DNA of 64,000 nucleotides from the NCBI GenBank assembly GCA_963930775.1, contig OZ005699.1:1447501-1511500 (forward strand), written 5' to 3'. Under the pieces are notes generated by a model. That model did not search any database. It worked only from the letters and a program-made list of their open reading frames with translations, and had not been told where the DNA came from. Position 1 is the first letter of the stretch; each line of letters starts with the position of its first letter. Made by a program: the position numbers and the translations under genes. Below, in pieces: positions 4,501 through 51,796 of this stretch. Origin of the DNA: Cliona cf. orientalis (taxonomy: Eukaryota; Porifera; Demospongiae; Clionaida; Clionaidae).

Positions 4501-7500
4501 TTCATCTAGCGACAAAAATTTGGGGTGGAAGCGCGATAAATGAGTGGGTGTATTTAGCACGCCAAGCTCTTGGGACGTACTTATAGGAGAATTTCTTTAA
4601 TTCCTCCAGATTATTTCGGGTAGTTTTCGATCAAAACAAATGCTAGTGGTTTGATTTGGTGATTTAGTGTGATATTTTGATGCTTAATGTAATTAAAGTC
4701 AAATTCTTAGGGGGGGAAGCTAGACAGTTTGGGGGGGGGGGGAGTTTCCCCCCCCCCCGGATGAAACCCTGTTATGATGTCAATATTATAATAATGTGGG
4801 AGCAGGTACAGTGCAGGTGGCAACTACATGTACTTGTAGCTTACTTCCAGGTGTCAATCATTACCATGCATAGTTACCATATTTTGTGTGTGCGCATGTA
4901 CATGCATATTATGGTGTACACACTCTATAGTCCAGTGGCGGATCCAGGATCTCTAGAAGGGGGGTTCTGATTTACTGTTGCGCGCGAAGCGCGCGCAAAT
5001 TTTTAGAACACGCCCACTTTCGGGATAAACCACGCCCATTTCGATCGTTTTTGAGACCAACTACCAGCCCTACCAGTTCAATCGATCTGTTTTCAAACGA
5101 ATTTCTTCTAAAGCATTCTAAGGTGAGCCATAGCAGCAGTTTTCTTAGTCACTGTAGCCAAAAGGGGGGTTCCATTTAGCCTAGCATCAGTATACTTCTT
5201 AGTGCTAGGTGCAGCCCAAAGGGGGGTTCCTGTGCACCCCTGGATCCCCCTCTGGATCCGCCACTGTAGTCTTATTATTGCATTGCACCACCTGGAGTAT
5301 AGTAGCCACAGATGCAAGCACACCTGGGATATGAGTACATGTAGGTTGTTTTGATTTATATCCTGGGTAAGCGCCGTGTGTTATATTCTCTCTCCCTCTT
5401 TTTCTCTGTCTCTCCCTCTTCCCTCCCCCCCCCTCTCTCTTTCTCTCTCCTTTTTCTCTCTCTCTCTCCCCTTCTCTCTCTGCTCCTGCAGAATCATAGT
5501 TGGTGCTCCTTCTGGTACATTCCCTGGTGGTTTAAACTTGGCCGATCCAGGCATGCCAAGAGCAGAACGATCAGGTCTCGTCTACGCCTGCCCTGTCCAA
5601 TCTGGCACATGTTATGGTGTACGCGGGAACACCACTCTCTACCTGGGTGCTCCTGATGCTGTCGATAATAACCCATGCGTGGATGGTCAGATGCTGCGAG
5701 ACTATCCCCAGTCGTACATCGAGGGGCGATTATTTGATCAAGCTCGTAAGCCTTTTTATATTTGTTTGGTTCTAGTGACAGCAATATTCTTCTGGCATGG
5801 ATTTAATTTATTGGGGTGGGGGAGCATAAGGGAATCCCCCCCCCCCCCCCCCCCGAGGTTGATTTCTCCTTCCTCGAATTTGTGAACTTGTAGCTATGTC
5901 GAGAATATTAGTTGTTAAGTTATGTACTGGAATATGTCTGATTCCCCCCCCCCCCACCACCTCCTGAAAGACCAGTGATTGATAGTCCCCTGCCCAGGCA
6001 TACATGTACATAATCTAGGCATGTCAATTCTCCATTGCATGGCACGCTAAGAGAGTCCAAAAATAATAATTATAATAAATTATAACAAGAGTAGCCATTG
6101 GCTCCGCCCAAACCACACCCTCTTTAGTGCTCTGCTTGTGAAGAAGTCTTAATTAGACTGGTTTGATAATCATTTTTTTGTGTACGTACGTACATGTATG
6201 TGTACAATACAGCCAGTGCATTCCTCTTCGACTTTGGCGAGGGGACATGTATACTTACTGAAAATAAGACGGATCAACTTCTTGGTGCCACTCTCTTCAG
6301 CAATGGTGAAACATTCATGGTGAGTGATCCCATTCTATATCTTTCTAAATCTTCTCTCTTTTTTTTTGTTCCCTTAGGCTTGTGCTCCAAGGTGGACGGA
6401 CACCAGGCGCGCTGCTTTTACCTTACTTCCCAGGGGAGTGTGCTATACATCTGGCAGAAATTTGCAGGGCTTTCAAAGACTACAACCATGTGGTAATGTT
6501 GTTATCCTGAGTAAGACTTGGGATGGGGGGTGTCCCTCCAGGGATTTCACATACCGTGTTTATTCTTAGTTTAATAGCTTATAAAATAATTACAATTTTA
6601 ACTTTCGCGTGATTTCTGGTTTAAGGTTGTCACATGCTCCAGTAAGGTACAGTGCATTATGAAAAGTCCTAGAATGCGAATTTTCTTGTGCTAATTAAAT
6701 TTTGCATTTTATAAACACTTAATATTACAGTAACGTACATTGTATACATGTATATCAGTTAGCAGTACTGCGCCACCTGAAAATACCCGGGAGGATGGAT
6801 ACTGTCTGGCTGGAACATCTGCACTGGCCTACGTAAGTTAATCTCAATTACCATAGTTCTAATAACTATTACTAACAGTAGGTATAACGGGAAATTTTGG
6901 CAAGGTTTTTAATTTGGTGATTCGGTATACATGTGTAGATCACCAACTAAAAAACTTTCCATTTACCTATAATTATCAGTGAGCATTTTCATATCCCCAA
7001 AATTTAAACTTTGCCAATACCCATTGCTCGCCAAAGTTTCCCGCTATAACGATATAGTCATTTGGTATGTGTGCTTAACAACCATTACCTACAATAATAA
7101 TTTTCCCCCTTACCTCTCTTCTTTTCTTCTCTCCTTTTCAGGATGGTGGGTTTGTGCTTGGTGCCCCTGGCAATCAAGAGGGTCGGGGATCTCTCTTTTA
7201 CTCTACCAGCGCTGACATTATGAACTTTATGAGTGGGCAGTTTCTTCTACCAAATGCAGATGGAGTGTCTGATCTCTCAATCACGGATCAGTATCAAGGT
7301 CAGGGGGTGTTTCGTTTATTCGTGAATAAAGAGGGGGTTTGACTTCATACAAAATGTGACTTTTGGATCACTTTCAACCTGCCATGGGCTCATGATGTAT
7401 CAATGCAGGATTTTCTACCGTTGCTGCGTTCATCACTCTAGTGAGAAGTTCAGGTCCAGCTCCTAGTAAGTCATCGTAAGGAGCTTCTACAGTGTAGAAT

Positions 7501-10500
7501 CTCTCATGGAATTATGTATAAGACCCCCCCCCCCCCCCCATCCCTCCTTCCCTTAAATTTCTTTACAAAAATATCGACACCTACATGTGTATATGTAATC
7601 AGCTACAATTGTAGCTAGGATAATCGTATTGTCCTTCACTGGCACATGGCTGAATGGAGATATGATTATGTACATTTTTTTGGAGGGAGGTGAGAGAGGT
7701 GCACATGTGAGGTGAGGGGGGAAGGGCTGAAGTAAGTGAAAGTGAGGGAAATTAGTAATTCTTGATAGTCTGGGTGGTACATGCACATACCTTATCCGTA
7801 CATGCGTATTTTGTAGATATTGTAGCTGCTGTACCTCGCTATGACGACAACACTTACTCCGGGCGGATCACCGTCTACAACCCACCTGACTACCAGACCA
7901 TTCAAAGTATCGAAGCTAGGGGCACTCAGGTGGGTACATGTACATGCAGTAGTCTTAAGGCTGGTTCACAATTTGACACTATGTAATGTGTCACCATTGC
8001 GTCGACGCTTGTGGAAGTGCAACACAATGCTAGGATGGACTTGGATCCTACTGGTCTTTTGTGTTGCATTTTGGCATTAGATCGTAAAAAAAATCGCTAA
8101 AATAAGTGTTTGTATTTTGCGACATTAACGCAACAGCTACTAGTCCCTGGACCCTGGATTGAGTAGCCAATTTTTGCCATACTTGAATTCCTATACAACC
8201 TGCTTTTAAGGTCACCACTGTAATAGTCAGTAATATCTTGGGGAAATGGCTATATAATTTTTAAGCTTTGGAAATCCCTGGTTTAACTATACGTGAAAAT
8301 TGGTGTTTATTTTCGACTTCACAGATGGCAGAGTTCTTTGGCCACAGTATGATTGCCATCGATATCAATGGAGACAAGTAAGCAGACATGAAGTTTTCAA
8401 AAGGGTGTACTTCACATGTAGTTCTGATAGTTTCATTTATGCAAATACCACTAAGTTAGTGCTTGAAATTCTAGAATACTTAATGATACTAGACTGTATA
8501 TGTATATTTTGCATTGTGCACATGTGCATGTAATGCAGCTATGATGATTTGATCGTTGGAGCTCCAATGAACACCGACTTTGATGCTCTCGAGATCGAAA
8601 GAGGACGTGTGTATGTCTTCATGAACACTGGAGTAAGTTTGCTCTCTCTCTCTCTCCCCTCCAGGGTCCTTCTCTCTGCTGTGTGCCTTCTATAATTCTC
8701 TCTCTGTGAAAAAGTGTATTCAAGAAACTGTAGTATACATTAAATAGTATTGTGATCAATTACTCTGAAATTCATATTATGAGATCTGTGCATATCTTTA
8801 CAGTAATAATGTACATATATGTATAGGGTGGAGCACTTATGTCCAATGACCCTATCATATTCGACGGCCCGAACCCTCGAGGAAGGTTTGGTACTTCTCT
8901 CGCCAACTTGGGAGACATCGATCGCGACGGCAACGAAGGTAGGGGGGCACTATTTTTAACATGCATGTATATATGTGGTGTTATTTTTGGGGGGAGGGGA
9001 GTAAGGGAGGGGGGACAGGGATCATCCCCCCTGACTTGCCCCCCCCTCCATCCCCTGAAAGGAAATCTATTATACATGTACATGCACACGTGTGAACACA
9101 AATAGAACAGGCAGAACCCTCAAATGCATCGTCGAATTTGTGCTGATATTGCATGTCCATATACTTTGTTTTTGCACAGACTTTGCTGTTGGAGCTCCCT
9201 ATACTGAAAACAACGGTAACACTGGAGCTATTTATATCTACTACGGAAACAGTAACCAGACCCTTTTTGAGTCTCAAACGCCATTTGAGGTACGTACAGA
9301 ATCTACCGTACTCTGGCTACACTGGTCAGCACATATAATTCTATCTCCCTCCCTTCCTCCCTCCCCCTCTCCCTCTCCCTCTCTCTCTGTTGCTCAGATC
9401 ACAGCTAGTGATGTAGTGAACAATATAACAGGTTTGAATGAGTTGAAGACATTTGGTTATTCTGTGTCTGGTGGAGTAGACGTCGACAATAATCGATTCA
9501 ATGGTATGCATGTTAATTATGCATTTATTTTGTACATACATAATGTGCAAAAGGACTATTATAATAATGTACATGTACAGTGCATGTTGAATTATTACGT
9601 ACATGTACACATGTATGTCCGAATGCAAGTGCAATACATATCTCTTGTTTTTTTGCAGATCTTGTTGTTGGAGCTTATGAGAGTCAACTGGTTGTTCTGT
9701 TGAGGTATGAGAGAGAGAGGGGAGGGAGGGAGAAAGAGAGGGGGAGAGGGAGGGAGGGAGGGAGGGAAAGAGAGAGAGAGAGATTATGCATGTACTATAA
9801 TACATGTATCATATTGTAAGCTCATTTCTGTCTGTAGGTCTCTACCAGTTATCACCGTTACCGTTAATATGCGTGTAGATGCCCCGACTCCCGTTGCACT
9901 GGACTCAACGTACGTAATATTATAGACAACAATGCTGTATGGCAGGTAATTTTTGGCAAGTATTGAATATTTTGGTGAAATATCTCTCCCTTGGTATTGG
10001 CGAAATTAGACATTTTTTTGGTGATCTGAATGCTCAGCATCATGGACACACATGCATTATGTTTAGATTTAATTAGTGATTTTTACCCAATTTTCCAAAT
10101 CGCTAAAAATTTCACCAAAATAATATTACCCTCTATACAGTAGTCTGCAATATTTGTATCTACTGTAGGGCTGAAAGAGGTAGCTATTTGAGTTTTATTC
10201 CTCCCATAGGTTTCCAGTGAGTGTGACTGCCTCCTACCAAGGAGAGGGAGTGAATGGACGGATAGGTACATTACGATTTTGCTGAGGGTTTTGATATGTA
10301 CACTATGTTTACAATGTATGTTCCCTCCTCCCTTCCTCTCTCTCTCTCTCTCCTCTTAATAGATGTTTCCTTTACTTTGAGTGAGGTTAGATCAGACACA
10401 GCTAATTCAAGGCTCAGGTTTGAAAACAATGGTGAAGGGACGCTCACTCTTATGGGACCAGGAAGGATGGACACACAAACAGTCATGATTACCTCCCTGG

Positions 10501-12952
10501 TATGCACATTTGATAATGATACAGTATCATGCACTCCCATTGTCCCCCCCCCCCCTCTCCCCCCCCTCTCTCTTCTCTCTCCCTCTCTTCCTCCCTCGCT
10601 CACACTACCCTCTCCTTCCCCTCCTCAGAGCAACACCACCTCCCTGGCACCTCACATGCTACGGCTCACCATACCTGGAGGTATTGATCCTCCTAGTACG
10701 CTCACTGATGGAAATGCAACCCTCGTGGACCTTTCCCCCTTTCCAAGGCTTCGGCTGGCAGGAAATAACACCCTAGATGTGAGTATGCATATACATGTAT
10801 ACCATAGAGCGGGTAACTTTGGCGAGCATTAAATTTGGCGATTTGAATGCTTACCGCCATAGATGTGCGTTGTAAATTGGTGAGTTTTTAATTTGGCGAT
10901 CTATACTGCCAAATTACCAAAATTAAAGACTTCACCAAAGTTTCCCACTATGCAGTATGTATGCCATAAAAATTGCAGTAATAGGTGAGCCTCAAGAAAT
11001 ACATATACATGTACATGTATAGTAACCCCCCCCCCCCCCAAACCAAAATTTAGCCCAAGATGAGGTGCACCACTAATGGCACCTATTTTTGTAAAATGTA
11101 CATTTCACAAAATAAAACTACATAAATATATAATATGTACTTGCTTGTACTCCTCAGGTACCGGTGGTGGATCCTTGTGGGGGTGATGGATGTCAATTTG
11201 ATGTTGAACTAACCTCCACGACACAGACTATTGAGTAAGATCTTCAAAGATGTTAATTATTATTTTGCAGCAGCAGGATTTAATTTCAAAAAGTTCACTA
11301 CCCTAATATTGCATTGTGTTGTATCAATTACCCAGCCTAATGTACGTACATGATACCATAGGGTACTGTAGTTCATGCAGGCTTAGCCAAATGTAAAATA
11401 CTGTAATGGAAGCCTTAATTCATATTCATATCTGTGTTGATAGAAGCCGAACTGTGTTAGAGTGCCATAGACCCATTTATATATCTCACTTATTCTAAAA
11501 ACAATTTTGAAAAATGCACCTTTCTGGTGAAGGTCATCAATCACTCCATACATACATGTACACATTATGAGAACTCATGGAATGCTAATTTCATACATAA
11601 AGTGGATCATGTGTTCCATTAATATGTGCCATACTACTTTAAATATTCAGAGTGGTCGCTAATGCTGATCCCATTTCCACTGTGGAATTGATGTATACAA
11701 ATGCCGGCCCTGAAGATGCAGTAGGACTTAACCTCAACTTCACTGGTCTGTCAAGTTACATCAGAAGTGTGGCCATACGACGAGAGGTGAGGGAGAGAGG
11801 GAGAGAGAGAGAGAGAGGGAGGGAGGGAGAGAGAGAAAGAGAGAGAGGGGGAGGGAGGGAGGGAGGGACGAGAGAAGGGATGAAGAGAGAGGGAGAGGGG
11901 GTGAGAAAGATGAGGAAAAGAGCTACATTGTAATTAGAGGAGGAAGGAGATTTGACATCATTTATCCACCGTCATCATTCTTCAGGGTGCCATGCCTTCT
12001 GAGACTCCTTGCACTGCAATCACCAATGGCGTTGCTAGCTGTATGTTGAGAACTCGATTTTCTCCTGGATCAGTGAGCGTAAGTACCACATACATTGTAT
12101 GCATGTGCATGTGCATGCTGAAATTTTCTCTGGACAAAAATTTTGCCAAGCCTGCTACCTTTGAATTACAAAAGTGATTTGAACAGGATTAAAAATTCTA
12201 TCAGTTGGGAGCTGGTGGCAAAATTGGCAAAACTTTTCTCCTGCAGAAAATTTTTAGGTACAAATATATACCATAATTATGTTTATGCTAATATATTATA
12301 GTCAAAAAAATAATTAAGATTTTAACTTATGTGGGATTTTCTGGTAAAGGTCGTTATGGTCTATATTAAGATGCATTATGAAAAGTCCTAGAACGCAAAT
12401 TTTCTTGTGCTAATTAGATCTTGCATTTTATTAGCATAAGCACGATAGAAATAAAATTTTATCATTGATACTGATAATCTTAAAATTTAGGAGAGAGTGA
12501 CAGTGAACTTTACAATTGACCAAGACAGCCTGACGGGCAGTGAGCCTGATTTCACTGTGCGGGTGGAGGTTACATCACAGACTGAGAACAGTAACGACGG
12601 AGACGTAGATCCTAGCAACAACTTTGTGCAACTCACCTTCGATATAGTGGCTCGGGCTGAAATCTCCATTACAAGACTGTGAGTTTGAGTATTAACTTAC
12701 ATGTACATATGTACATGTACAAGACGTTCATAATAATTGATCATGCATGTACATTGCATACATGTACATGTATTTTTATTCTCTCTCCTCTTCTTATTCT
12801 ATTACAGATCATTTGGAGGAAACAGATTTGACTACACTGCTGTTGCTGTAAGCTTACATGTGTACATCAACCCACACACTCATACACTCACACACATATG
12901 TACATGTACGTACCTTAACATAATAAATTATGTTCACTCCCTCACTCACTCT

Positions 12953-13018
<66 letters not shown>

Positions 13019-16000
13019 CTCCCCTCTCTCACTCCCTCAGCCTCAGACACCTGTCACAGTCCAGGGTTTGGGGCGCTCTACCATAACCTTGGAGGTGGAC
13101 ATCCAGAACGCAGGTCCCACGACGATTAGGGAGGGCAATGTCACCATCTACCTCGCTAACAGGATCACGGATACCCAGTACACCCTCTATCCAACAAGAA
13201 TAGTAGTATGTACTACAGCACATGTAACATGTTATAGCTGAAAATTTTCACCAATACTTCATAAGTTGTTCTTTTTTTTTTTTTGCCTGGTGTCCCGCCC
13301 AAAAAAAGCACTATTTTCTGACATCTTGCATTTATATTCATTTTTTCTACAGGCTGTTAATAATCAAAATGGAATAATCACTTGTGATCGAAGTTTTGTT
13401 AACCCTGATGGACTTCCTCTCGCCTCACAGGTACAGGATTCTCCCCCCCCCCCTCTCTCGCTCCCTCTCTCTCTCTCTCTCTCTTTCTTTCTCTCTCTCC
13501 CTCTCTCCCTCTCCCTTTCTCCCTCAGTAATACTCGATCCCTCCCTGCAGGTTGGTGAGGCTCGTAGGCGTCGCTCAGCCTATCAAAGTTCCTCCTCTTC
13601 CCTGAAAAGAGTCACCAGACAAGAAAATACTGTCACACATGTAAGGGCAGTGTAGATGTGTTTATAGATGTAGTACTAGTGTACCGTTTGGTATACTGGC
13701 AAAGTTTAAATTTGGCGATCAGGATCGATCCTTACTGCCATAGGCGCTAGGCATGTTCGCAATAAATTCAATTGGATAAGGTTTTAATTTGCTTTCTATA
13801 CCAAATTTGCCAAATTACCAAATTAAAAACCTCGCCAAAGTTCCCCGCTACAGAGGCATAGGAAGACGATTTGGTAAACAGGTGCTCTGGTGCGCATGTT
13901 TACACTAATAATTGATAATAGTTAAACACTTCAGAATGAAATATGACATTAATTTTTTTGTGTTCCACTCAGAAATTTCATGGGTGCACCAGCACCCGGT
14001 GCACCCATGCTTCCTAGTGTTTCTATATACTCAGTTACTGAGTGTATAAATAGCTAGCGCATGCACACACACACTCACAGTAGTGATATGTACATGGCAT
14101 TAATTATTATGTAATAGTTATATCACGCGCACTCGGGATGCATGGCATTTATTGCCCTCAACCCTCGGGCACAAGGCCCTCGGGCTTCGGTGCAATAAAT
14201 GCCATACATCCCTCGCGCCCGTGATATAACTATTACATAATAATATTATGTACATGTACATATATAGACATGTATATACCTGCAGAGTTGCATTGGTCCT
14301 ACGGTGGACAGTGGGATGTGTACAGTGATCAGATGCAGTCTCACTAACCTGAGGAGAGGAAATGTGCCGTTCACAATATCAATCTTCACTCGAATTGACG
14401 AACGCTACTTCTCCACGCAGGTACATGTATGTACACACCAAAATAATTGTACAATATCAGAGGTTCCCAACATTTTGGTTGAGAAAATATCATAATTAAA
14501 GTGCGTTGTATAAAGATACTAGAAGGGTATGCGGGGGGTCATTCTTGTAGCATACATGCACATGTACATGTATATGTATGAGATTTAATACTTGCAAGTT
14601 AAATACATGTACATGTACTTACATAATAATTATGCTGTATCCCCCCCAGCCTGTTCCTGGAACCGTGTACACCCTGACCTCATCAGCCAGTGTGTCCATT
14701 ATGAGCAGTTTCTATGGTGATAATACAAACGACAACAGTGGAATGGTAAGAAGATTAATTTTGATAGTACTTATTGTGCATAATAATTATTATTGAAGTA
14801 ATTAAACCTTGACTGGGATGATATAGTTGCTCCTTGTCGGTAATGGTCGTCAGCTTCACTCTTTCCTGTTATAATTGCACATACTGATACATAATGCATA
14901 CATACATACATGCACACCTGCAAACACACTCACATATAGTACTCTCCCTCTCTCCCACCAGGTTACAGTTATGCTTGCGCCAATGGTAGCGGAGACGCCT
15001 AGGAGTTACTCTACCTCGAGCTCCAAAGGTAGCGAAGGTATGGTACACATCCAGCTCTGATGTATGTTGATCGGTGCTAGGCCTATAGCTATGCAAGTAT
15101 GCAGGAAGGGGGGGGGGGGGGCAGTGCTGCCAAAGATTAGGATTTTATCCTAATATATATTAGGATTGTAGTTTGTTAAATTAAATTTTGTTGTATAGCT
15201 ATAGCTAATACATTATAAAGCTGAGAGCTACTTTCTCTGACAAGTACCGCTTGCCAAACTTCACGCGTTCTCGTGGCTGATGTAATCCCGTGAATAAATA
15301 AAGCTAGCCTTGTGCTATATTATATACATGTAGCATGCACGCTGCATACCATATATATATATGGTGCTGCCGAGTTCATCTCCTGTGATTGAAGCATTGA
15401 AACTTGTCACTATCAAGGTCGAGATCAAGAGTCAGTCTCAGACTCCATATCTCTGTGATTGAGGTGCTGGCGTGGTAGGTAGATGGTGCACGCACTATAT
15501 TGACAACCTTTACCATATTGTGTACCATTGATAATTATGCAGCTACTGAGGATGTGATTATTTTATTAATAGCTAATCCCTCTCTCTCTCACTCACACTC
15601 ACATACATGTACCTCTTACCGCATACACAATATATATATGTCATAGCATTTAGGTCAGTCAGGGATGTACCGGAACCACTCCCTCAACACATCCAAAGAC
15701 CACAGCCAGGTATGCATGACTGTTTCAAAATGTTTCGCTTGAATGAAAGGTTGTTGGGACCCAGAATTCGAACCTATATAGTGTAGAAGAGATCGAGGAG
15801 TATCGATGATATATGGCGATTCTCTCAGTTCGCTTTCTTTAATTAGCGAGCGCACTCTCTGGGGGGATTTCCCTATTCAGTCTAGCACATTGCAGGTTTT
15901 TCATTTAATAGCTAGCCCGTGTGATAATCTCTCTCTCTCTCTCACTCACACACACATACACGTACATACACAATGTCATAGCATTTAGGTCAGTCAGGGA

Positions 16001-19000
16001 TGTACCGGAACCACTCCCTCAACACATTCAAAGACCACAGCCAAGTACACCAAACATACAATCAGTACCATTAGTTATAGTTAATGCGTGCACGGTGACG
16101 GAGTGCAGTATGTGCATGTACATGTATTCCTCCAGTCCACTCTGGATCTCCCCCTCTCTCTCTTTCTCTCTCCCTTTCCCTCTGACACGTACACAGGTAA
16201 CAGTCAACCAGATCATTGCTCTGATAAAGAAACATGTGGTATGTGCATAGGCACAGCTGGCTGTTCGTGGTGCTCAACTCTGGTAAGTCTTTCCCAACAA
16301 TTGAACCACATTGATTGTGTGTGCAGCTTCTGACTTCCTGCACCTATGGCTCATGTATACCTCAACAGAACTTTGAAGGCCAGCGTTGTTCCTCTAACCT
16401 CACCAACTGCAATGGTATCGAAGAGGCTATGGGAAGTATCGAACGAGAAGTAAGCGCACGCATTGTTTGATGACCCTGTACCATAATATTCATGCCAGTG
16501 TAGAATTTAATACTCATTCTCTGTTTCCTTGCTGAAGCTTTCTGATCGTAAGAATCCAGTGGATGTGACAAACGTCAATCTTCAACTGAGTGTTGGTGAG
16601 TCATCGTTTATCGTTTATGAGTGCATATAATATAAATATAGAACAGAAACATGTAACATGATTTCACTCTTTCACTCTCTCTCTCCCTCCCCCCCCCCCC
16701 CCCCCCTTCTCTGTCTCTCTCTCTGTCTTTCTCTTTCTCTTTCTCTTTCTACCCCCTCCCTCTCTCTTTCTTTAAATCTACACTTTTTATCTCTCTTCTT
16801 TCCATTGCCAATTATATGTACATGTAGGTGTGCCCCAGACCTTCACAGTAACCGTTACCCCCCTGAGGAACCTGGCCCTTGATTTGTACTTGTTGATTGA
16901 TCTCTCGACTTCCATGATGGAAGAGCTCGATTCTTTGAAGAGAGTGGCTGGAGATATTGGTATAACAATATATATACATGTAATTATTCTTGACTAGTCT
17001 CACTGTATGCCAGATTCTACGCTCTCATTGACAACATTTGCACACACATATACACTCACACACACACAGTCACATACTAACTCATGCACACACACACAAA
17101 CACTCGATCACACACACACAGCAAACCGGATCAGAAATATCACAGACAATGTGCGAATTGGTTTTGGATCGTTCAACGATAAACCCACTCGTCCTTACAC
17201 CTATATTCCCATGCCCAATGCTCAAGGAGTCTGCAACATCCCTCTCTGTAATCAGCAATTCTACGCCTTTCGTCATCAGATCACACTCACAGATAACATC
17301 ACCTTCTACAATGTAAGCATGCATGTACTGCATGTACATGTACAGTGTGATATATACATGCAGGGTAATCCTACACCGTATAGCGGGAAATTTTTGAGGG
17401 AGAAAACTTTCGCGGATTGGTAGGAAAGGAGCATTTTGTGGAGAAAACTTTTGTGGAACGTTAAAACTGGTTGCATAATGGGTGTGGCATGCCTAGAATT
17501 TCGTGGAGAAAACTTTCGCGGATGGGTGAAAAATCGCGAAATTCGTGAAAGTTTTCTCCCTCGAAAATTTCCCGCTATACGGTATTTTCGGTGTGAAATT
17601 TTTAGATGTTTTTGAAATTTTTTCACAAAAAATTCAAGACATGGCGAAAGTGTATTTTGTTACTTTGCCCCATCACAAACTTAGTAATATTGTATGGCCT
17701 AAGAACTGAAATTTTGATTGATTCTGCCCCCGAATACTGTACACTGTAGATGTCTCTTCAGGGTGTGACGGTTACAGAGAATGCTGATCGTCCTGAGAAT
17801 GGACTGGAGGGCCTGGCTCAGGTATGGACATGTACATGCACATGAAACACACAATACCATGTTTATTCTAATAGAACGCAAGCTACATGTACTTGTACAT
17901 GTAATTACGATTTTAACTTTTGCACATGCACTTTCTGGTAAAGGTCGTTACCATCTACATTAAGATACATTATGAAAGTCCTAGGACGCGAATCTTCATT
18001 ACCAGTGGGAATCTTTTGTCATGGGGGGGCGGGGCTGAAAACATGGGAGCCCAGAATTCTGAGGAGGGGAAGCTAATATGAAGTACTGTACATACATTAC
18101 AGAGTCTATGATTCTACATACATGATGGGGATTTGGGCTGGTAGTGGGTACGTGCACTAACCTAGACATTGTACATGTACATGTATTAATATGTACATGT
18201 AACTACCATGTACATGTGCATGTAGGTTGTTGCCTGTGAGGATATCATTGGTTGGAGGAGTCGCGATGCCCCCCGTGGTCCGGAACAGGGACGTACACGA
18301 GTTGTCCTCTTCATGACTGATGACGCATTCCACTTCGCTGGGGAAGGACAGGTCTGTGTTATAATACTACATGTACACATAGTGGCATACTGTACTTTTT
18401 GCTAAAAATTTTAGCACTAATTTAACCTCTCTCTCCCTCTCTCTCTCTTCCCCAGTTTGCTGGTATTCTGAAGCCTTATAGAGGTGAGTGTCTATTGGAT
18501 CCTCCTCCCAGTGATGCTGGACCAGCAGGAGCTACCGAATTCACAAGATGGAGCGAAGTGGTGAGAGAATAAATAGTTTATAATATTATGTATGTATGCC
18601 CCCCCCCCCCCCCACACACACATACATGTACATGTACTCCAAGAACACATACTGTAGTATCCACAGGGCATGGGCGCTTAAACATAACTCGCAATTTTGG
18701 CCCGCGTGCACGTGGGCGCTTACCTGGGATCATAATGGCATACGTTTGTGTAGAAGCTGCTACAGTGGCCTCTCGAAATGTAGTACATGGGTGCTTGCCC
18801 GGGACACTACGGTAATACGTACCGCATGTGGGATGGTACAGTCGCGCAATCTTTATTATGACATTGTGCTTTTCATATACATGTACATACATGCACACAC
18901 ACGTGCAGGATTATCCATCAGTGGGTCAAATTGTTCAGATGCTTCAGCAGAATGAGGTGGCAGTGATTTTTGCTGTACAGGAGAGCAGGCTACGTACCTA

Positions 19001-20109
19001 TCAGGTATAATGTACTGACACGTATACGTGTCAGGGCCGGTGGAAGCAAATTTACATTGGTCAGGCCATGCCTATCTTTATTCACAAAATAAATAGCTAA
19101 TTGAAAAGAAATTTAAATGCATAATATTATTATTAAATTTATAACAAAAACTGTCATAGAGACAAACTGTTTCACTACGGTTAATAAGTCACAATTCACT
19201 ACTATTCACTAAAGCGCCATACCGGTTGGCATGTTGAGTAGTTAGCTATTCTCCTCGACGATTTTTGATTGACGTGGAGACTATACGTCGGCAGAAAATG
19301 AAACTGAGTGAGTAATTAATATTACTATTACAGCTGAAAAATGGTCCGGCCAAAACCGGAGCAACCGGACCGGTTCCACCGGCCCTGCGTGTACATATAT
19401 GTAACAAGTACATGTACAGGGTTTATCTTTCAATCCTTTTTTCAGAATTTGTCAGAGCTGATTAATTTGCATTCAAGATCATCTGTAGCACAACTGATAC
19501 CTGATGGAACTAACATCCTGAACCTCATAAACACAGAATACGAGGTAAGAAATAAGGGACGGAGGGGAGGGGAAGAGAGAGAGAGGCTCAGAGAGAGGGA
19601 GGAAGAGAGAGAGAAAGGGAGGGAGAGAGGGAGGAGAGAGGGAAGGAGAGATAGTGAGAAACCTATCTTTATCTTCAGAGTATCCTTCAAGAGGTTGCCC
19701 TGGTACCGGATGATTCTACAGAGTTGACTATTTCTGTTCAACCCATGTGCCCTGCAGGGTAAGTTAATGTACATAGTGTACATGTATGTATTCAATATGT
19801 GCATAATATATAATCTTATATAATCTTATAATTATGCTTACATGAAACCAGAAAAATTGGAGGGAATTTTAAACTTAGTTTTTACATACATACACACTGC
19901 AGTACAACCGAGTTGCCTGGAGGGTTTGGGTGTAATGGCGTACAGCTCGACACTCCAGTGAACTTTGAGATCAGTGTGACCCTTAACACTTGTGAAAACT
20001 TTCCATCTGTTGGATCACCGTCAAGGTAAGGAATAGGATAATATTTATTGTAGTACGTGTGGTACTTATTCTTTCTTTCTCTCTGTCTTCCTCCCCCTTC
20101 CCTCCCCCT

Positions 20110-20153
<44 letters not shown>

Positions 20154-23100
20154 CCTCATGCAGGACTCATCGAATTGTGTCTCCTACTCTTGGTGACTTT
20201 ATCATTACCTATACTGGTGACTGTGTGTGCGATTGTGCAGTGAACCTTGTGAGTCAGTTGTACACATGCATACCGTAATATTGTGCACATATAATTCATA
20301 ATACAATTATATTATTATTGTAGATGAGAACAAACAATTCTGCCTTGTGCAATTTCAACGGCGACTTTGTGTGTGGAGTGTGTGAATGCTTCGAAGGATG
20401 GTAAATCAAACCCGTGCAGGGTTTATTTCAGGATTTCACTCAAGAGGGGGCTAACACATACCATATAACGGGAAACTTTCGAGGGAGAAAACCTTCACGA
20501 ATTTCGCAATTTTTACAGCGAAAGTTTTCTCCACGAAATTTTAGGCATGCCACACCCATTTATGTGATCAATTTAACATTCCATGAAAGTTTTCTCCCTC
20601 GAAATTTTCCCGCTATAATATGGTATAGCAGCAACTTTAACCAGGGGGCAATCCCCATAATAATACAGGGAAAGCCAATTTCCAAGAATCCCAAACTGGG
20701 GGTGGTGGGCGAAAGCACCCCCTGACCTCCCTGAAATAAACCCTGAAACCTATAGATGGAGTACCATATTTCAAATTCTGCACGAACTTTTATGTGTGTG
20801 TGTGTATGACAGAAGCTGTGATCCCTGCATGTACATGTAGGTGTGGCTCTGACTGCTCTTTGAAGATCGGCGATCTTTGTGGCTGCGATAGGCTGACAGA
20901 AACCTGCCCCAGGGGCGGACCCAACAACTTGCAGTGCAACGGTGAGTCAGCCATACATGTACATGTACATGCATACATGCACATGCACATCCACATGCAT
21001 GATAATAATATTATTATAGAAATTCTGTATACTCTTCTGTTGGTCTAGCAATAAGGCAGGGTCTACATGTGCATGTGATGCAGTAGAGTACTCTCTCTCT
21101 TCCTTTAACAGAACTGGGGTACATGCACACATAATATACATGTACATGTAGCTGTCTTCACACACACGCATGATATGAATATATACCTTCTCTCTCTCTC
21201 TCTCTCTCTCTCTCACAGGTCAAGGAGTCTGCTGTGAAGGGTCCTGCATTTGCAGGCAAGATGACGATGGCTTCTTCTACCGTCACAGTGACTCCAATAA
21301 TCCTGAAAGGATGGACTGTGCCTGTCCCCCGGAGGAACAAGTCTGTAGGGAGGATCCGATGGTTAGCATAGATGCCACTATAAACACTTTTTTGATTGAC
21401 GATCTTTACCTATTCCCACCGAGTGTGTTTAGTTGGTAATGGTCGTCACAACTCTACTTTGTGTAGTGTAAAAAATGCCTTGTTCAAGGACTCCGAAATG
21501 GTTACATGTGCAGGTTCTTTATACTTCGTGTACATGTAGCTCTCACAAAATGAACCTAAATGTAAGAATAATGTACAATGCATGCAATCATACTCAAAAA
21601 CACAATTGCAAGCACATGCGTACATGTACACACACTCTCTCATACTTGTAGTATCATGACATACACTCACTCTCTCATTGACAGAATCTCACCAGTAGGA
21701 CTTGTGTGAACGGTACTTGTGGTTGTCAAGGCTGCCAGTGTGTCGGTAGGGCCTTTGGAAGGTTCTGTGATGCACGAGTAAGTCAGTGATGGCCTATTTC
21801 CAGCTTTTCAATATTACATTCTATTATTATTGTAATTATATATACATTGTAGCTATAATATTAATATATTATGTTTGACATACATGTGCATATAGCTCTT
21901 TATAATCACTATACATGTACATGTACACACACATACTCCAACCTGCTCATATTCTTGACTAGTACTCTCACCTCCCTCTCTCTCTCTCTCTTTCTCTCTC
22001 CTTCCCTTCCTTCCTCTCTCCCTCTCTATATAGAGCCACATACATGTGTATACACACTCTCATGCACACTCACACACATACACACGTCTCTCCCACCCAG
22101 GATGTTGGTACCTGCAACGATGCCATGGATCTGATGTGCATTGAGCGCTGTGTCAACAGCAACTTTGACGAAAACACATGCCGGACTTGTGAACGGACCC
22201 GGCCCATACTCACCTTATCATCGCTACCTGAGGGAGAGACGCTGGAGGTGACGCTGGAGAGAGTGGCTAACACACAACTACCTGCAGGTTAATATAATTT
22301 AATTGTAGACCACCAACAATAATTTCTACTGTAAATAAATTTATGATTTTTACCACCATTTGCCGACGTAAATTTTTCAACCTCAAAAAATTTAGGCTAT
22401 ATGAATGGTACATGTAATTATTTGTGTATGGGGAGAGGGGACCCCCTATGCAATTTCACAAGTACTTCAACCTGCTCAAACTCTCCCTCTCTCTCTCTCT
22501 CTTTCTCTCTCCCTCCCTCTCTATAATTATAGACCCAAGAGTAAATACGACATTTCAGTATGATCTTGTGGATTGCGCTGCTGTTGTGGGTCGTTACACA
22601 TACAAATACTACGTACTCCTAAGAGCTGGTGATATGTACGCACTCATTCTGGATCAAGAAATAGAGGGTGAGTATTACTCACACTGTATACAAGTGTAAA
22701 AACAATTGAATAAATTGGAGGATGCAGTAGGGATGGCAGGGTCAAAAAGTACGCAATCACATCCACTATACAGTGTACATCTCTACGCTTGCTTTTCTTG
22801 ATTATCATGCACCTATTAATGTTGACTTGTTTGTTGAGTGCGGCATGTAGTAGTCACATCCCCTGTCGACTGTCATAATGGCTCAGTTTAATATTGCATT
22901 TGCTGCCATTCAGAAGCTTTATCGTTAAATTTTGTACATACAGCGCGGCCAGAAAGCTCCAAAATGGTTGCATTTCACATCCAAAATTAGTTCTCTTTAA
23001 ATGTGCAAAATTACACACACACAGCTCAGCATGCACCATGCACAATCACTAAGCCTGAGCTCTAACTCCCATATAATTTTATTATTGTCTAGCTTTTGAT

Positions 23101-24243
23101 CATGCAGCATCTGTAGTAAATCCCATGCATACCGCATCTCAGTATAGAGTCTGCATTAGTTTCATAGTCCCATTTGTATGCATAACAGCTGCACGTACAT
23201 GTACATGTAGGAGCTTGGCCATCTGCTTAGCTACCACTATCCATTGATAAACTTTCACCTATTCTTAGAATCTACTACAGCTCCGGCAACAACTGTGCCA
23301 TCCACTACAGTAACTCTGCCACCTACAACTATACCAGCAACAACAGTTACTGTTCCACCTCCTCAGCCACCCCCTCCCCCTGGAGTGCAAGGGCTGTGCT
23401 CCTTTGTTGTCTGGTACAGTCCAGTAGTAGAATCCTGTGAGGACATCTGTGACATCCGTGGCTATGAAGTGAGACTGTACAATCCCCAGTCATCACATCC
23501 GAATATCACCAATCGTGTCGGGGCAAACAGAACTTTCTACATGGTAGAGGAAGAAAAGCTGCCTAGCAGCCATGAAACCTATGTTCAGGTAGCTATTTTC
23601 TGCATTAGTCAGGATTGTGTACTATGGCTACAGCTATGACTGCAGGTTCGAGTAATTCATCAAACCAGCCAAGTGGGGGAATGGAGTGAGGGAATTTCTC
23701 TGGGTAAGGCATCATAGAAATTAACAACTATGATAAATTATGACTATCTCACATGCATGTGAGCTGTTTATAATGCAATACTCCAGGATGTGAGAAACCA
23801 CCAGTTCCAGAAAAGCCACCCAGTAAGTAGGCGACCTCATAATACATGTACACTCACATGCATGACATTCATTGTATTTTATATGACACCTATAATAATT
23901 GTGTATAGGGGTACATTTTGAGCTGAATGGGAAGGTCTACCTCAACAACAGTGCCCTCCCTCTGGCTGACATTGGAGAGGGCACTAGTGCACTCTACTGT
24001 AGGACTGACAAGGAGGAGTGTTGTGGAATGTTGCCAAACCGGTTTGGGCAGTTCTACTATCCCAATGGAGTCCAAGTCCCCATTGCTAATCGACTGCAGG
24101 GTTTCTATCGCAACAGAGGCAGCCAGCTCATACGTCTGAACCGGAGAGAGGGCATCACGTCACCCACAGGGACCTACCGATGTGAGATACCCAATGATGA
24201 TGATGAGACAGTCAATATCTACATCACTCTGACTGGAAACTAA
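1331..24243 (+). CDS. Single-chain integrin alpha-beta fusion, secreted form (gene A)
   Basis: Fifty-three exons splice with matching phase into about 2041 codons (2062 if both copies of the linker exon are used). Order: signal peptide, seven-bladed FG-GAP propeller, thigh, genu, calf-1, calf-2 with a furin-type RRRR site, short linker, PSI, beta-I domain with DLSTS MIDAS, hybrid, I-EGF repeats, beta-tail, Thr/Pro linker, FnIII-like, Ig-like, stop. Normal integrins are two separate type I membrane proteins that pair for adhesion to matrix or cells. Here both ectodomains are in one frame and neither has a membrane helix. The alpha part has no stop and the beta part has no start codon or signal peptide of its own. 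The start is the first ATG before a clear signal peptide, preceded by a leader conserved in gene C. Exon coordinates are in the domain entries. Expected role is a soluble extracellular adhesion or ligand-binding protein. Intron boundaries are manual and unconfirmed by RNA. Confidence 0.85.
2879..2976. repeat. Small palindromic MITE
   Basis: Imperfect inverted repeat: ggttatagcac... pairs with ...gtactataacc, and the inner arms cagttcagtg/cactgaactg and attgacc/ggtcaat also pair. Length about 98 bp. Same architecture as the 14104-14244 and 51254-51369 elements but a different sequence. Confidence 0.65.
3264..3486. repeat. Foldback with duplicated right arm
   Basis: The left arm starts cagctgctgttgac and the right arm ends gtcaacagcagctg. 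The inner block gcagcagcacgaacttag occurs twice in the right half and once, reverse-complemented, in the left. This is an inverted repeat with one internal duplication. Confidence 0.65.
4495..4771. repeat. TIR element, CAGGGTTTCATC family, copy 1
   Basis: Begins cagggtttcatc and ends gatgaaaccctg, a perfect 12-bp terminal inverted repeat. A second copy with the same ends and body lies at 36552-36811 in gene B. Non-coding; behaves as a MITE. Confidence 0.75.
4933..5266. repeat. TIR element, CAGTGGCGGATCCAG family
   Basis: Starts cagtggcggatccagg and ends ctggatccgccactg, about 334 bp. The ends are inverted repeats with an extra ggatcc near the right end. No ORF of interest. Confidence 0.7.
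5492..9704 (+). other. Gene A alpha beta-propeller (exons 2-14)
   Basis: Exons: 5492-5745, 6213-6319, 6378-6492, 6759-6832, 7142-7298, 7409-7465, 7817-7929, 8325-8377, 8539-8632, 8827-8938, 9180-9289, 9398-9503, 9659-9704, ending near residue 541. FG-GAP repeats are clear: IIVGAPSGTFPGG, FVLGAPG, YDDLIVGAP, DFAVGAPY, DLVVGAY. ACAPRW matches the conserved blade-2 strand of integrin alpha. Three calcium-binding loops sit in the last blades: DINGDN (~381), DIDRDG (~447) and DVDNN (~519). No inserted I domain is present. In ordinary integrins this domain contacts the beta-I domain to form the ligand-binding head. Confidence 0.88.
9838..10778 (+). other. Gene A thigh domain (exons 15-18)
   Basis: Exons 9838-9909, 10210-10265, 10363-10499, 10629-10778, residues about 542-680. 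It opens RSLPVITVTV, the usual entry strand of the integrin thigh (R-P-V-I/V pattern), and is beta-rich with several N-glycosylation sequons (SNTTS, NNT). Gene B keeps the thigh at 39103-40099. Confidence 0.75.
11158..12678 (+). other. Gene A genu and calf-1 (exons 19-22)
   Basis: Exons 11158-11234, 11651-11786, 11986-12078, 12491-12678. The first exon has PCGGDGCQFDVEL, the close Cys pair of the integrin genu loop at which the leg bends, followed by the calf-1 entry strand. Later exons carry another Cys pair (ETPCTAITNGVASC). Gene B has the genu Cys pair at 40249-40351 but none of the later exons. Confidence 0.72.
12808..15037 (+). other. Gene A calf-2 with furin-type site (exons 23-29)
   Basis: Exons 12808-12847, 13041-13205, 13353-13430, 13551-13640, 14286-14420, 14650-14745, 14962-15037, to residue ~1071. 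Exon 26 encodes VGEARRRRSAYQ: a RRRR site (~944-947) where many integrin alpha chains are cut into heavy and light chains. Exon 27 has the calf-2 signature SCIG...MCTVIRCSLTNLRRG. The final exon ends SYSTSSSKGSE just where a normal alpha chain would enter the membrane, but no membrane helix follows. If the last donor is not used, translation stops after nine intron-coded residues (stop at 15058-15060), a possible alpha-only secreted form. Confidence 0.78.
14104..14244. repeat. Palindromic MITE TGTAATAGTTATATCAC, copy in gene A
   Basis: The left ttattatgtaatagttatatcac pairs with gtgatataactattacataataat; the inner ggcatttattg pairs with caataaatgcc. A second copy lies at 51254-51369 in a different intron of gene B. 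Confidence 0.8.
15647..16044 (+). other. Gene A duplicated linker exon joining alpha and beta parts
   Basis: Two 63-nt exons, 15647-15709 and 15982-16044, encode the same Pro/Arg-rich peptide AFRSVRDVPEPLPQHIQRPQ and differ at only a couple of bases. Both have the acceptor gtcatag and enter and leave in phase 1, so either one or both can be spliced in without breaking the frame. The upstream intron end is copied as well. The interval between them holds an inverted copy of a repeat also seen near 34200-34350 and 34600-34760. Confidence 0.7.
16197..16595 (+). other. Gene A PSI domain and entry to hybrid (exons 31-33)
   Basis: Exons 16197-16282, 16327-16449, 16538-16595, residues ~1093-1181. 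CSDKETCGMCIGTAGCSWCS matches the integrin beta PSI pattern C-x(2,3)-C-x2-C-x(5-7)-C-x-W-C, the normal start of a mature beta subunit. No initiator Met or signal peptide precedes it. Confidence 0.85.
17375..17583. repeat. TIR element, CCGTATAGCGGGAAA family (gene A intron 35)
   Basis: Ends accgtatagcgggaaa and tttcccgctatacggt are inverted repeats, with internal repeats of the ggagaaaacttt type. Related copies: 20460-20625 and 53218-53414. More distant GGCGAGG-type relatives lie at about 6880-7050, 9940-10110, 10806-10955 and 13690-13855. Confidence 0.75.
19032..19387. repeat. TIR element, CAGGGCCGGTGGAAGC family
   Basis: Left end cagggccggtggaagc, right end ggttccaccggccctg, inverted repeat apart from one or two mismatches, 356 bp, in intron 39 of gene A. 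No ORF. Confidence 0.65.
19679..20248 (+). other. Gene A hybrid domain, second half (exons 41-43)
   Basis: Exons 19679-19758, 19903-20025, 20164-20248, residues ~1452-1547. Cys pattern MCPAG...FGCNGV...LNTCEN and the exit GDCVCDCAV match the part of the beta-subunit hybrid domain that follows the I domain and the first EGF cysteines (D-C-x-C-x-C). Confidence 0.8.
20324..21777 (+). other. Gene A I-EGF repeats (exons 44-47)
   Basis: Exons 20324-20400, 20841-20941, 21219-21361, 21685-21777, residues ~1548-1685. Cysteine-rich modules such as LCNFNGDFVCGVCEC and CNGQGVCCEGSCIC follow the integrin EGF spacing that forms the beta-subunit stalk. Exon lengths (77, 101, 143, 93) equal those of gene B, and both exon and intron DNA are close to identical there. 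Confidence 0.82.
20417..20745. repeat. TIR element, CAGGGTTTATTTCAGG family, with nested insertion
   Basis: Starts cagggtttatttcagg and ends ccctgaaataaaccctg. A CCGTATAGCGGGAAA-type element (20460-20625) is nested inside. The matching intron of gene B has the same element at 51513-51702 without the nested one. A third copy is at 42615-43255. Confidence 0.7.
22101..22667 (+). other. Gene A beta-tail region (exons 48-49)
   Basis: Exons 22101-22287 and 22533-22667, residues ~1686-1792. CNDAMDLMCIERC and DENTCRTCERT are the cysteine-rich start of the beta-tail. DLVDCAAVVGRYTYKYYVLL resembles the D-C-x5-F/Y-T-Y strand just before the membrane in beta subunits. A normal beta gene would follow with a membrane-helix exon. 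Gene A instead enters the Thr/Pro linker. Confidence 0.75.
22690..22815. repeat. Dispersed repeat GTAGGGATGGCAG
   Basis: The unit aattg...agtagggatggcag...aagtac...tctctacgcttgc recurs at about 55860-55972 and as both arms of the foldback 59137-59532. Confidence 0.6.
23269..23822 (+). other. Gene A Thr/Pro linker and FnIII-like domain (exons 50-52)
   Basis: Exons 23269-23588, 23646-23703, 23787-23822, residues ~1793-1929. The start is mucin-like: repeated TTVP/TTIPATT followed by PPPQPPPPP. Then comes a beta domain with SFVVWYSP, GYEVRLYNP, YVQVRVIH and GEWSEGISLG. The tyrosine strand followed by a WSE motif is typical of fibronectin type III domains. It ends in a short KPPVPEKPP hinge. Gene B lacks all of this. 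Confidence 0.65.
23909..24243 (+). other. Gene A C-terminal Ig-like domain (exon 53)
   Basis: One exon, about 110 residues, ending at TAA. Visible motifs: SALYCRTDKEECC, FGQFYYPNG, GFYRNRGSQLIRLNRREG and SPTGTYRCEIP. The last (T-G-x-Y-x-C-E-I-P) is the F strand of an Ig fold. The combination FYRNRG...RLNRR...SPTGxYRCEIP is one I recognise from sponge cell-surface proteins (knowledge, not searched). No hydrophobic tail follows, so the product should be secreted. Confidence 0.8.
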
Positions 24244-25681: not shown

Positions 25682-25799
25682 CTGCATTAATTGAGAGAAT
25701 AACACTTTTTTTTTTACATGAAATAACAATTTAGTGACAGCCATAATCACATTGCTTGCGATTGTGAAAGTTTGTGTAAAAATTAATAAAGAACTAATA

Positions 25800-29236: not shown

Positions 29237-32200
29237 ATGGCTCAATCCCTGAGTCGGAGTAGCTACTATTTCTTCCACGCGTGTCTCTATCTGTCCCTTC
29301 TCTCCGTGTCTCTCCGGGTGGCGAAAGCAGCTGGTAACATTGACGTATTAGAGCCAATCGTCAGAATATCGCCAGTCCGCGGAACGCTTGGTCGCGCTGC
29401 GCCTCCAGCCAATGTCGGTGGGGACTACTTCGGCTTCTCGGTGGCTCTTCACCAGATCAAGGTGCCCAGTTCGTTTGACGAGGCGCTGAACAGTACAAGG
29501 TATCGTATCTCATAAGCTTGTCTTTTTATATTAAAAATGCGAATGAAACTTTGTCACTTGTTCAAAATCATTAAAAAGATGACGGAGTTTCCAGATGCTC
29601 CGATCGCTGTACCAAAATAAATCAATTAATAACAACTCTCTTACAATCCCTTGGGCAAGAACTTCAGCATATCAATATTCTTTTCTTTCCTGATGCCCTG
29701 GGCTTGTGGAATGGGTTACCAGAGGACATGACCAGTGTAAATAACTTGATGTTTTTTAAGAAGTTGTTATTGAAACTTTAATTTAATTTCAATAGCATAA
29801 TAATAGGTGCACTTAAAGTTAGCTATTTTGAATTTTGTGTGTCTACTGTATGTATATAGGCCTAACTGTTATCATACCATAATTATGTGCTGATCCTTGT
29901 CATAAGTGATAAAATAAATTATAGCTGGACTGTTCCCCGTAGATGCCTTAGCGGTCACCTCTTCAATACAGCCACAATGCATTTACTATGGAATGCATCC
30001 TGGATACGCCCACCTGCCTAGGCCTGGGAACCCCCACTTGGCTGCCAGGTACAACTTGTGGGTTTGTTAGACCGCCTGCTAATTGCGCTTGCACATTGCA
30101 GCCTCTCTAATGCAGCCACAGATATTTGGCCCAATGGTGACCGCTTTGGACAGGAATTCCACTGTAATCGGAATTCCAGATCAGCCATGAAACACAATGG
30201 TCCAGGAACTGTCTGCTGCAGTACAAATCCATGCCGCTTGCTTACCGTAGCTAGGCTACTGAGTACGTGTAGCTACCGTGTTTATTCGAGTAGAAGCCGC
30301 ACATGGAGCTCTGCGAAAGAAATAGTAGCCACCCTCGAATAGTAGCCGCACTCTGGCAAGGCTGAAATTAATAGTAGCCGCGGCTAGTATTCGAATTAAT
30401 AAATATGCTATTTCTTATCCCCCAAGAAGCTAGCCCAAGGATAACAATATTACATGTACTTGTAAATTTGAGATTTATTGTGTAAACTTTTAATTTTAAT
30501 CAACTCTCTATCTTTGGTTATATTATAGTGTTTTACTTGTAGTATAAAATTTTTATTGTTGTTTTCTCCTCCATGCACACACATACTCCCTCTCTCCCCC
30601 TCTCCTCTCTCTCTCCCTCTCCCCCCCCCCCCCCCCCCCACTCCCCACACCTCAACAGAATCTTAGTGGGTGCTCCAAAGGGGACATTCCCTGGAGGTCT
30701 GAGCCTAGCTGTCCCGCCAGACTCCACTCCCGAGAATGAAACAGGTCTCGTGTACGATTGCCCCGTCCGGAGTGGCACCTGTTGGAGGATCGGGAATGGG
30801 GAAGGGAATGATGCAAGACTCTTCGATCCTGATGGTAAGTTTGCCGGTAATCAAACTTAAAATTTAATTATACAATGAACTCTGTTAACTATGTTATCCC
30901 CAGTAGCTGCATAGTTGTAATGGTGCATACATGTGGTAAAAGGTCGTCAGTATATTGCGTATACAGACTACACATTGATGCCGGTGCCTACGGGTTGCAA
31001 AGAATTGAGTCAGAAAATGTACGTAGTTGCTGTTTTCTGATTTGATGACCATTACCACACATAACATTGTACGTACCGTAAAGGTACATTTTTCTGAGTG
31101 TGAAAAAATTATGCGAATCGGTCAAAACGGGCCTCTTGAAAAATTTACACGATTTTTATTTATGCATTTAAACGTTGCATGCATTACGAACATATGGCGC
31201 GATAATATTTATGATGATACAAATTTATGCGACCGCCCCTTGACTCGCATAATGCGCATAAATAAAACTCGCGCAGAAAAATGTCGCTTTACGGTAGTCG
31301 AATATCACGTAACATTACTATTGATGGGTGTGGCCAATGAGACGCGATTTGTGGTCCTTATAAGCAAAATACATCAGTCTTCCAGTCTTTCCACCATTTC
31401 TATGATATGAAACACCACATTCCCAGTTGCTATAATATTGTTAAAAATTAATGGTGCCTGTGGTAAAGGATTGTCAACGCGGTGTACACAGTCTATTTGT
31501 CACTTGCTGTGACGCTTCTGTGGACCTCGAGATTTGGCAATTTTTGTGTGGACGATGGCAATAATAACAGCAGCAGTAATGCAGAACTGCATGCGCAGGC
31601 ACATGGGTTAATTGTTATGCATGCATGCACAAAGGGCCCGGGGGAGTGGAATATATAGTTATAATGATTGACTTGTTACTTTCTTTGAATCCGTACAGCT
31701 AATGAAATTGTGCTTAACAACATAAATGATCCTAATGATGGAAATCAGCTGAACGTCCACGAGCTCAAGTCAGGCCAGCAGATGGGAGCTACTCTTATCA
31801 GCTCAGGAGAATTGTTTGTCGTAAGTTAATTCTTCGAATGATACGTACATATACACCTGCAGGGATTCTCCCTGAAGCTGCTGGGTGCTTAATGATATTC
31901 TTTGTTCTTATTTAATTATATTCAAGTCGAGCAGGTGGACCTTTCTGGCCCGGGCCTGCCTGAGGCATGCTGTGCATGCAGGAGACGCCGCGTCTGGATA
32001 TTTTAACCTTGGTGGTTCAGACTCCCTTCAATAATTATATTATTATTACATGCCCATATACAACTTTCCCCATCCTTTTCATGATCAAGCAATCAGTCCT
32101 GTCGGCACTGATCCATGGGGGCTGGTTTTGTTTGCTAGTACGTAGTAACCAATTTTAACCATCAAACGGATAATATTGGTTAACCATTGTATAGGGATTT

Positions 32201-35762: not shown

Positions 35763-35806
<44 letters not shown>

Positions 35807-37403: not shown

Positions 37404-37456
<53 letters not shown>

Positions 37457-51759: not shown

Positions 51760-51796
<37 letters not shown>

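Follow-up and report, generated by a model that had tools for sequence, protein, structure and literature searches.

The 64,000-nucleotide window analyzed here (positions 1447501–1511500 of contig OZ005699.1, hereafter C11, in the 217-Mb genome of the sponge Cliona cf. orientalis) contains two adjacent genes, A and B, each of which places integrin alpha and integrin beta ectodomains in one reading frame. We consider it likely that both genes are natural alpha-beta integrin fusions, that they arose by the joining history proposed below, and that each yields a single precursor. Integrins are the standard example of obligate alpha-beta heterodimers, and the choice of partner is among their main control points. 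Instead of the separate chains of a heterodimer, A and B have one frame across the join, as known from the genome alone. The fusion in gene A, which an initial annotation of this DNA had reported, is confirmed at the genome level and is very probably present in the mRNA; the broader interpretation given in that annotation is partly supported. The case for the fusions is based on an intact frame, the absence of the alpha helix and tail and of a beta signal peptide, the presence of unfused relatives, the second fusion, and signs of selection.

Gene A (positions 1331–24243, plus strand), as rebuilt from splice sites, has 53 exons in a single frame, as the initial annotation had stated. The coding length is 6,126 bases (2,041 codons) with no internal stop or frame break, and the sole stop is the terminal one at 24243. 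An automatic gene model was rejected because it filled part of the 3.9-kb intron 1 with small exons and lacked the exons for PSI and the start of beta-I. By Pfam, the alpha domains (FG-GAP, calf-2) precede the beta domains (beta-I, I-EGF), with Integrin_A_Ig_3 at residues 862–1049 and Integrin_beta at 1196–1457 of the spliced protein; both the FG-GAP propeller and the Ig-like leg domains of an integrin alpha are recognized. Sequence matches in PDB include integrin alpha-IIb (residues 171–1003) and integrin beta-3 (residues 1104–1624), such that the earlier alpha and beta domain calls are backed by two kinds of comparison.

The PSI, hybrid, beta-I, and I-EGF domains of an integrin beta are found in both A and B. 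The DxSxS motif of the beta-I domain, which we take to be the metal-site motif, reads DLSTS in A and DVSAS in B. The fusions share the FG-GAP propeller, leg domains, and signal peptide with known alpha chains that have no inserted I domain (alpha-V, alpha-5, and alpha-IIb type). A basic cleavage-type site in calf-2 is also common to known alphas and the fusion; in gene A, this site is RRRRS in exon 26 (13551–13640). It could cut the gene A chain into two linked pieces, in which case "single-chain" may describe only the precursor. Unlike known alpha chains, the fusions have neither a helix nor a GFFKR-type tail after the alpha part and run into a beta PSI domain. With integrin beta chains (beta-2 and beta-3 are among the best PDB matches), they share the PSI, hybrid, beta-I, I-EGF, and tail domains. 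They differ from these in that no beta signal peptide of their own was found (the alpha signal peptide is the only one in A and B), no helix could be placed in A, and neither A nor B has an NPxY tail.

The join in gene A lies between exon 29 and the PSI exon, which are separated by a gap of 1,159 bp. Exon 29 (14962–15037; donor AAG/gtatgg) precedes the helix position of related alphas; its phase-1 end matches the phase-1 entry of the PSI exon, placing the two ectodomains in one frame as originally claimed. The initial annotation had further proposed a splice through a 63-nt linker exon. The in-frame junction stands, but that exon has a weak acceptor, has a second tandem copy, and is not needed for the frame, because splicing exon 29 directly to the PSI exon preserves it as well (2,020 aa). 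The linker exon is therefore treated as optional. Depending on the linker, approximately 20–40 residues separate the end of the alpha-like sequence from the first PSI cysteine. The claim that the gap holds no membrane helix was upheld; the best 19-residue hydropathy in it is 1.45, compared with 2.8–3.2 in four ordinary alpha genes.

Comparisons with unfused genes of the same genome provide sharper evidence on this point than the signal-peptide scan described below. One alpha gene (alpha M; C11:1322829 down to about 1301400) matches the alpha half of A in all 29 exons, with 65–100% identity in each (79% in exon 1). Exon 29 of alpha M reads VTVMLAPMMVETPDGTSSGSLLHFILWPCIGGVLLLIAAAILLYF and its next exon reads VGFFRRKKK. 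Exon 29 of gene A reads VTVMLAPMVAETP and is followed by differing sequence, with DNA identity between the two ceasing at 14999; in alpha M, the membrane helix and the GFFRR tail come only residues away from this divergence point. In alpha M and in four neighboring alpha genes (H1–H4), the helix is encoded in the exon where A diverges and the GFFRR tail (GCFHR in H4) comes next. Thus, the C-terminal helix and GFFKR-type tail after calf-2 are present in H1–H4 and M and absent in A and B. For the beta half, the closest comparison is beta D, which is located on the opposite strand to the left of the window and is 96% identical to A over the beta-I and hybrid domains. Beta D has its own signal-peptide exon (MANLSPWIALLIVALLSIG), a helix, and an NPLY tail; beta E also has a helix and an NPxY tail. 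Identity between A and D starts at 16147, 50 pyrimidine-rich bases upstream of the PSI exon. The junction DNA between the two identity limits includes pieces repeated elsewhere, for example, at 33.5–34.8 kb.

Gene B (29237–55730, plus strand) adjoins A and repeats its architecture. The model rebuilt from splice sites has 39 exons encoding 1,516 aa with no internal stop. FG-GAP is recognized by Pfam, and the calf domains are gone except for the first exon. The join sits elsewhere than that of A, with the alpha headpiece leading through a 451-bp phase-1 intron to the beta PSI domain. The nearest relatives of B are alpha K (C11:1300502–1268947) and beta J (within C11:6449501–6476500). Alpha K matches a B-type alpha protein (P0004, see below) through the helix and tail, and the order of M and K is the same as the order of A and B. 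Beta J shares 93–96% identity with B across the first two beta exons, and the match starts 20 bases upstream of the PSI exon. Its signal-peptide exon is located 15.3 kb upstream of PSI, and no alpha match was found within 17.8 kb upstream. Both joins fall within the first intron of a beta gene. Because the architecture recurs in B with a different breakpoint, and all four halves have unfused relatives in this genome, the arrangement appears to be more than chance. The beta half of B is itself a mosaic in sequence, as its EGF and tail exons are closest to A and D. In B, the motif GDGRLAGI keeps an arginine where A, D, and E have glutamine; this position is presumably that of the residue entering the propeller.

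A phase-1 signal-peptide exon upstream of PSI was searched for in betas D, E, F, G, and J, leaving aside the beta genes on contig C15 and at C11:6.55 Mb. All five have one candidate each. At the same standard thresholds, none was found in the gap of A, in agreement with the initial annotation, or in that of B; laxer thresholds give one poor candidate in the A gap. Moreover, significant homologues of the five beta signal-peptide exons were found nowhere else in the 204 kb around the window. A whole-genome Pfam search for Integrin_A_Ig_1 gave no match, the exons probably being too short for a six-frame search.

Substitution patterns suggest that both halves of A have been under purifying selection. 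On the A beta branch since the split from D (outgroup E), the 1,369 non-synonymous sites carry 10 changes and the 404 synonymous sites also carry 10 (omega about 0.30, p = 0.007). For the A alpha branch since the split from a partial duplicate of A, gene C (outgroup M), the counts are 31 and 19 (omega 0.52, p = 0.021). An unpolarized comparison of the A and M alphas over 1,034 codons, which contain no stops, gives an omega of about 0.66 (p = 0.006). For B and J, dN is 0.062 and dS is 0.177 over 427 codons (omega 0.35). Trees were inferred from partial exon sets (alpha: A, B, C, H1, H2, and H4; beta: A–G and the C15 gene, with G and C15 partial). The alphas of A, B, and C form a group with support of 1.0. 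In the beta tree, the beta-I of B is not grouped with that of A, so a single ancestral fusion is unsupported by the beta halves.

Protein searches covered about 5.8 billion sequences and admitted only proteins of 0.55–1.75 times the query length. Among the matches listed (the best 120 of 1,087 for the B alpha), the best-scoring named animal relative is an integrin alpha of Halichondria panicea (P0016; 38% identity). Two further proteins, P0002 (beta) and P0004 (alpha), are 73% identical to B in the queried regions, over 94% of the region for P0004. These two and P0005 are separate proteins with their own helix and tail, unlike B, and P0002 also has its own signal peptide. All three (source lgn) appear to be transcript-like, and the identity of 73% indicates that they probably come from another species. 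The fusions are most simply derived from separate genes, given the unfused relatives in this genome and these separate B-type proteins in what is probably a second species. The only protein with both domains among the matches listed is P0001 (2,554 aa, from an ENA contig), whose single chain combines FG-GAP repeats with an Integrin_beta VWA domain, as in the fusions, with 29% identity over 53% of the queried region. It differs in that thigh, calf, PSI, and I-EGF are not among its listed domains and the two shared domains are spaced apart, with other repeats around them; the presence of RTX and cadherin-type repeats suggests a bacterium-like protein. The Pfam family vWA_SIBA-E scores 31.6 on the beta-I region of A (cut-off 27) and 24, below the cut-off, on that of B. 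Sib proteins are known from Dictyostelium, and we know of no alpha chain in Sib-type integrin-beta-like proteins. No natural alpha-beta integrin fusion was found in the portions of the literature accessible to the search. This result and the protein matches listed agree with the earlier statement that no natural single-chain integrin has been described.

Under the proposed history, copies of two neighboring alpha genes (types M and K) would have come into a beta-rich cluster. Each alpha would then have fused with a beta gene at a point within the first intron of the latter, just upstream of the phase-1 PSI exon, with loss of the alpha helix and tail as well as the beta signal peptide. A single mRNA would be translated into a single precursor that starts with the alpha signal peptide and propeller, continues with the thigh (plus calf-1/2 in A), and then carries the PSI, hybrid/beta-I, EGF, and beta tail domains. 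The precursor of A would terminate with FN3-like/Ig-like modules and have no helix, and that of B would terminate with a membrane helix that lacks a tail. We infer this order of events, the splicing across the junction, and a pairing of the propeller with beta-I within one chain, which would remove partner choice. The end of the thigh and PSI are both near the knee in known integrins. In B, the alpha end and PSI would both be near the knee, so a short linker could let one chain build the headpiece. The calf-2 end is close to the membrane in known integrins, and the A alpha runs to the calf-2 end; thus, reaching PSI would need more length.

The C-terminus of gene A also departs from that of beta D, with exons 50–53 occupying the position of the helix and NPLY tail. 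The names given to the modules in these exons come from reading the sequence, as Pfam gives only an Ig match, which is sub-threshold. No C-terminal membrane helix or NPxY tail could be placed in frame in gene A, a point on which the initial annotation is silent. Hydrophobic stretches occur on the plus strand near 22.8, 23.8, and 25.7 kb, and none is placeable in the frame of A, although a C-terminal exon may have been missed. Because no helix could be placed, the product of A is probably secreted. Integrin-type signaling from A and B is unlikely given the absence of an NPxY tail. The most likely role would be ligand binding by a secreted (A) or tail-less (B) protein, acting as a matrix bridge, decoy, recognition, or adhesion protein.

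Several observations weigh against the interpretation of A and B as functional fusions. No transcript or protein of A or B was found; among the protein matches listed, there is no fused animal relative, and the closest relatives are unfused. Certain splice sites of the models score low (e.g., the donors of exons 24 and 34 in A, and sites at exons 14 and 37 in B). Part of the selection signal may predate the joins. When the A beta branch is polarized with C instead of D, the counts become 11 and 7 (omega 0.48, p = 0.11); the unpolarized comparison of the A and C alphas has a p-value of 0.085, and the remaining branch tests with C are not significant (p = 0.14 and 0.15). The alpha of C itself evolves like a dead copy (54 and 19 changes, omega 0.91, p = 0.40). 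The standard signal-peptide scan also has a background: the other A introns (15.7 kb) gave three candidates, and the B introns (21.9 kb) gave four. None of these seven is in the A introns at about 2.7–15 kb or upstream of the B PSI exon. Nevertheless, silence of the gaps alone is weak evidence given seven background candidates in 37.6 kb and the 15.3-kb distance in J, and a distant beta signal-peptide exon may have gone unrecognized.

Alternatively, the two halves of A may be adjacent genes, namely a secreted alpha that ends by read-through of exon 29 (SSSKGSEGMVHIQL followed by a stop) and a beta with a distant or unrecognized signal-peptide exon. Reading through the exon 29 donor does lead to a stop within a few codons, so a secreted alpha alone is possible. 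The A gap contains two poly(A)-type hexamers (AATAAA/ATTAAA), for which the expectation is 0.44 by shuffles and 1.9 by A-intron density. The poor candidate found in this gap at lax thresholds and the long first intron of J would also fit two genes. However, no standard-threshold signal-peptide exon lies in the gap or in the A introns at about 2.7–15 kb, and no significant homologue of the D signal-peptide exon was found there. This explanation would also have to hold twice, and the gap of B has no signal-peptide exon. We regard it as unlikely. The facts in its favor, together with the tandem candidate linker exons, could also point to alternative transcripts, with the locus producing a secreted alpha by read-through and the fused form by splicing at exon 29. 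Such a dual output, which overlaps and is compatible with the fusion interpretation, is somewhat more plausible than two genes, although still doubtful. Finally, A and B may be recombination debris (pseudogenes) or an assembly artifact, as the cluster includes a deletion copy (gene C) and a beta D interrupted in exon 32, and the A junction contains repeated DNA. Against this, 2,041 and 1,516 codons are free of stops or frame breaks, both halves of A have signs of purifying selection, the unfused relatives exist elsewhere as separate copies, and two different joins would both have to be artifacts. This explanation appears very improbable.

With somewhat less confidence than in the fusions themselves, we think it reasonably likely that the genome has at least two working natural single-chain integrins formed by separate joins between different alpha and beta relatives, one secreted and the other membrane-anchored and tail-less, both having the ligand-binding head within a single chain and the partner fixed by the gene. 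If the fusions are natural, the alpha-beta pair would be fixed in DNA, and ligand binding would be uncoupled from inside-out signaling given the lack of NPxY tails. They would also offer ready-made soluble or tail-less heads for structural work. The unfused relatives M, K, D, and J, all found in this genome, make the path from two chains to one chain directly testable. Coordinates of the features are listed in Table 1.

Table 1. Features of the integrin fusion locus, in window coordinates.
Feature	Position	Strand	Remarks
Gene A exon 1: start codon, signal peptide MYRNSISLLLYVVHIASSFGARA, propeller start	1331..1557	+	Phase 0 to 2
Gene A exons 2–14: integrin alpha beta-propeller (FG-GAP repeats)	5492..9704	+	Pfam FG-GAP 1.9e-18, 3 stretches
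Gene A exons 15–29: thigh, calf-1, calf-2	9838..15037	+	Pfam Integrin_A_Ig_3 4e-12
Junction DNA of other origin	15000..16146	+	Alpha M identity stops at 14999, beta D identity starts at 16147
Candidate 63-nt linker exon	15647..15709	+	Phase 1-1; weak acceptor (score -1.1); frame-optional
Second tandem copy of candidate linker exon, also 63 nt	15982..16044	+	
Gene A exon 31: integrin beta PSI domain start CSDKETCGMCIGTAGCSWC	16197..16282	+	Phase 1 in
Gene A exons 32–43: remaining PSI, hybrid, beta-I (DLSTS motif)	16327..20248	+	Pfam Integrin_beta 7.6e-63
Gene A exons 44–49: I-EGF modules and beta tail domain	20324..22667	+	Pfam I-EGF_1 5.3e-9
Gene A exons 50–53: Thr/Pro-rich stretch, FN3-like and Ig-like modules, stop	23269..24243	+	
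Gene B exons 1–19: signal peptide, alpha propeller, thigh, first calf-1 exon	29237..40351	+	
Gene B junction intron, 451 bp, phase 1	40352..40802	+	Neither signal-peptide exon nor helix found
Gene B exons 20–32: PSI, hybrid, beta-I (DVSAS motif), resembling stand-alone beta J	40803..50077	+	Integrin_beta 2.8e-55
Gene B exons 33–38: I-EGF and beta tail, near A and D	51420..54569	+	78–88% DNA identity with A
Gene B last exon: membrane helix GLSAGAIVGIMVVVTAFEIL followed by LMTY and stop, without cytoplasmic tail	55597..55730	+	
Gene C: start of duplicate of A, running past the window to about 81000	61374..64000	+	Deletion copy

The deletion in gene C starts in the intron that follows exon 18 and stops inside beta exon 32, and C has no match to exons 19–31 or 44–49 of A. 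With these exons unmatched and its alpha near neutral, C was rejected as a third fusion. Beta D carries an insertion of about 2.5 kb in its exon 32 equivalent (window coordinates -13729 to -16253; L011), which may impair its function. The alpha H series consists of tandem stand-alone genes with a helix and a GFFRR or GCFHR tail at window coordinates of about 88570–144000 (L015, L016, L021–L024). On contig C15, positions 576387–578102 (L002, L008, L017) contain a further, divergent beta integrin that looks canonical, having a hydrophobic N-terminus, a helix, and a tail of its own. A near-perfect inverted repeat (98%) occupies positions 2–378 of the window, upstream of gene A. A minus-strand helix-and-tail exon resembling the end of beta G occurs in three copies (600–735, 25289–25781, and about 80600; the second is decayed), which are possible duplication scars flanking A and C. 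Between A and B, there is an open frame of 515 aa (27454–29001), and the sequence just upstream of it reads as an endonuclease/reverse-transcriptase-like peptide.

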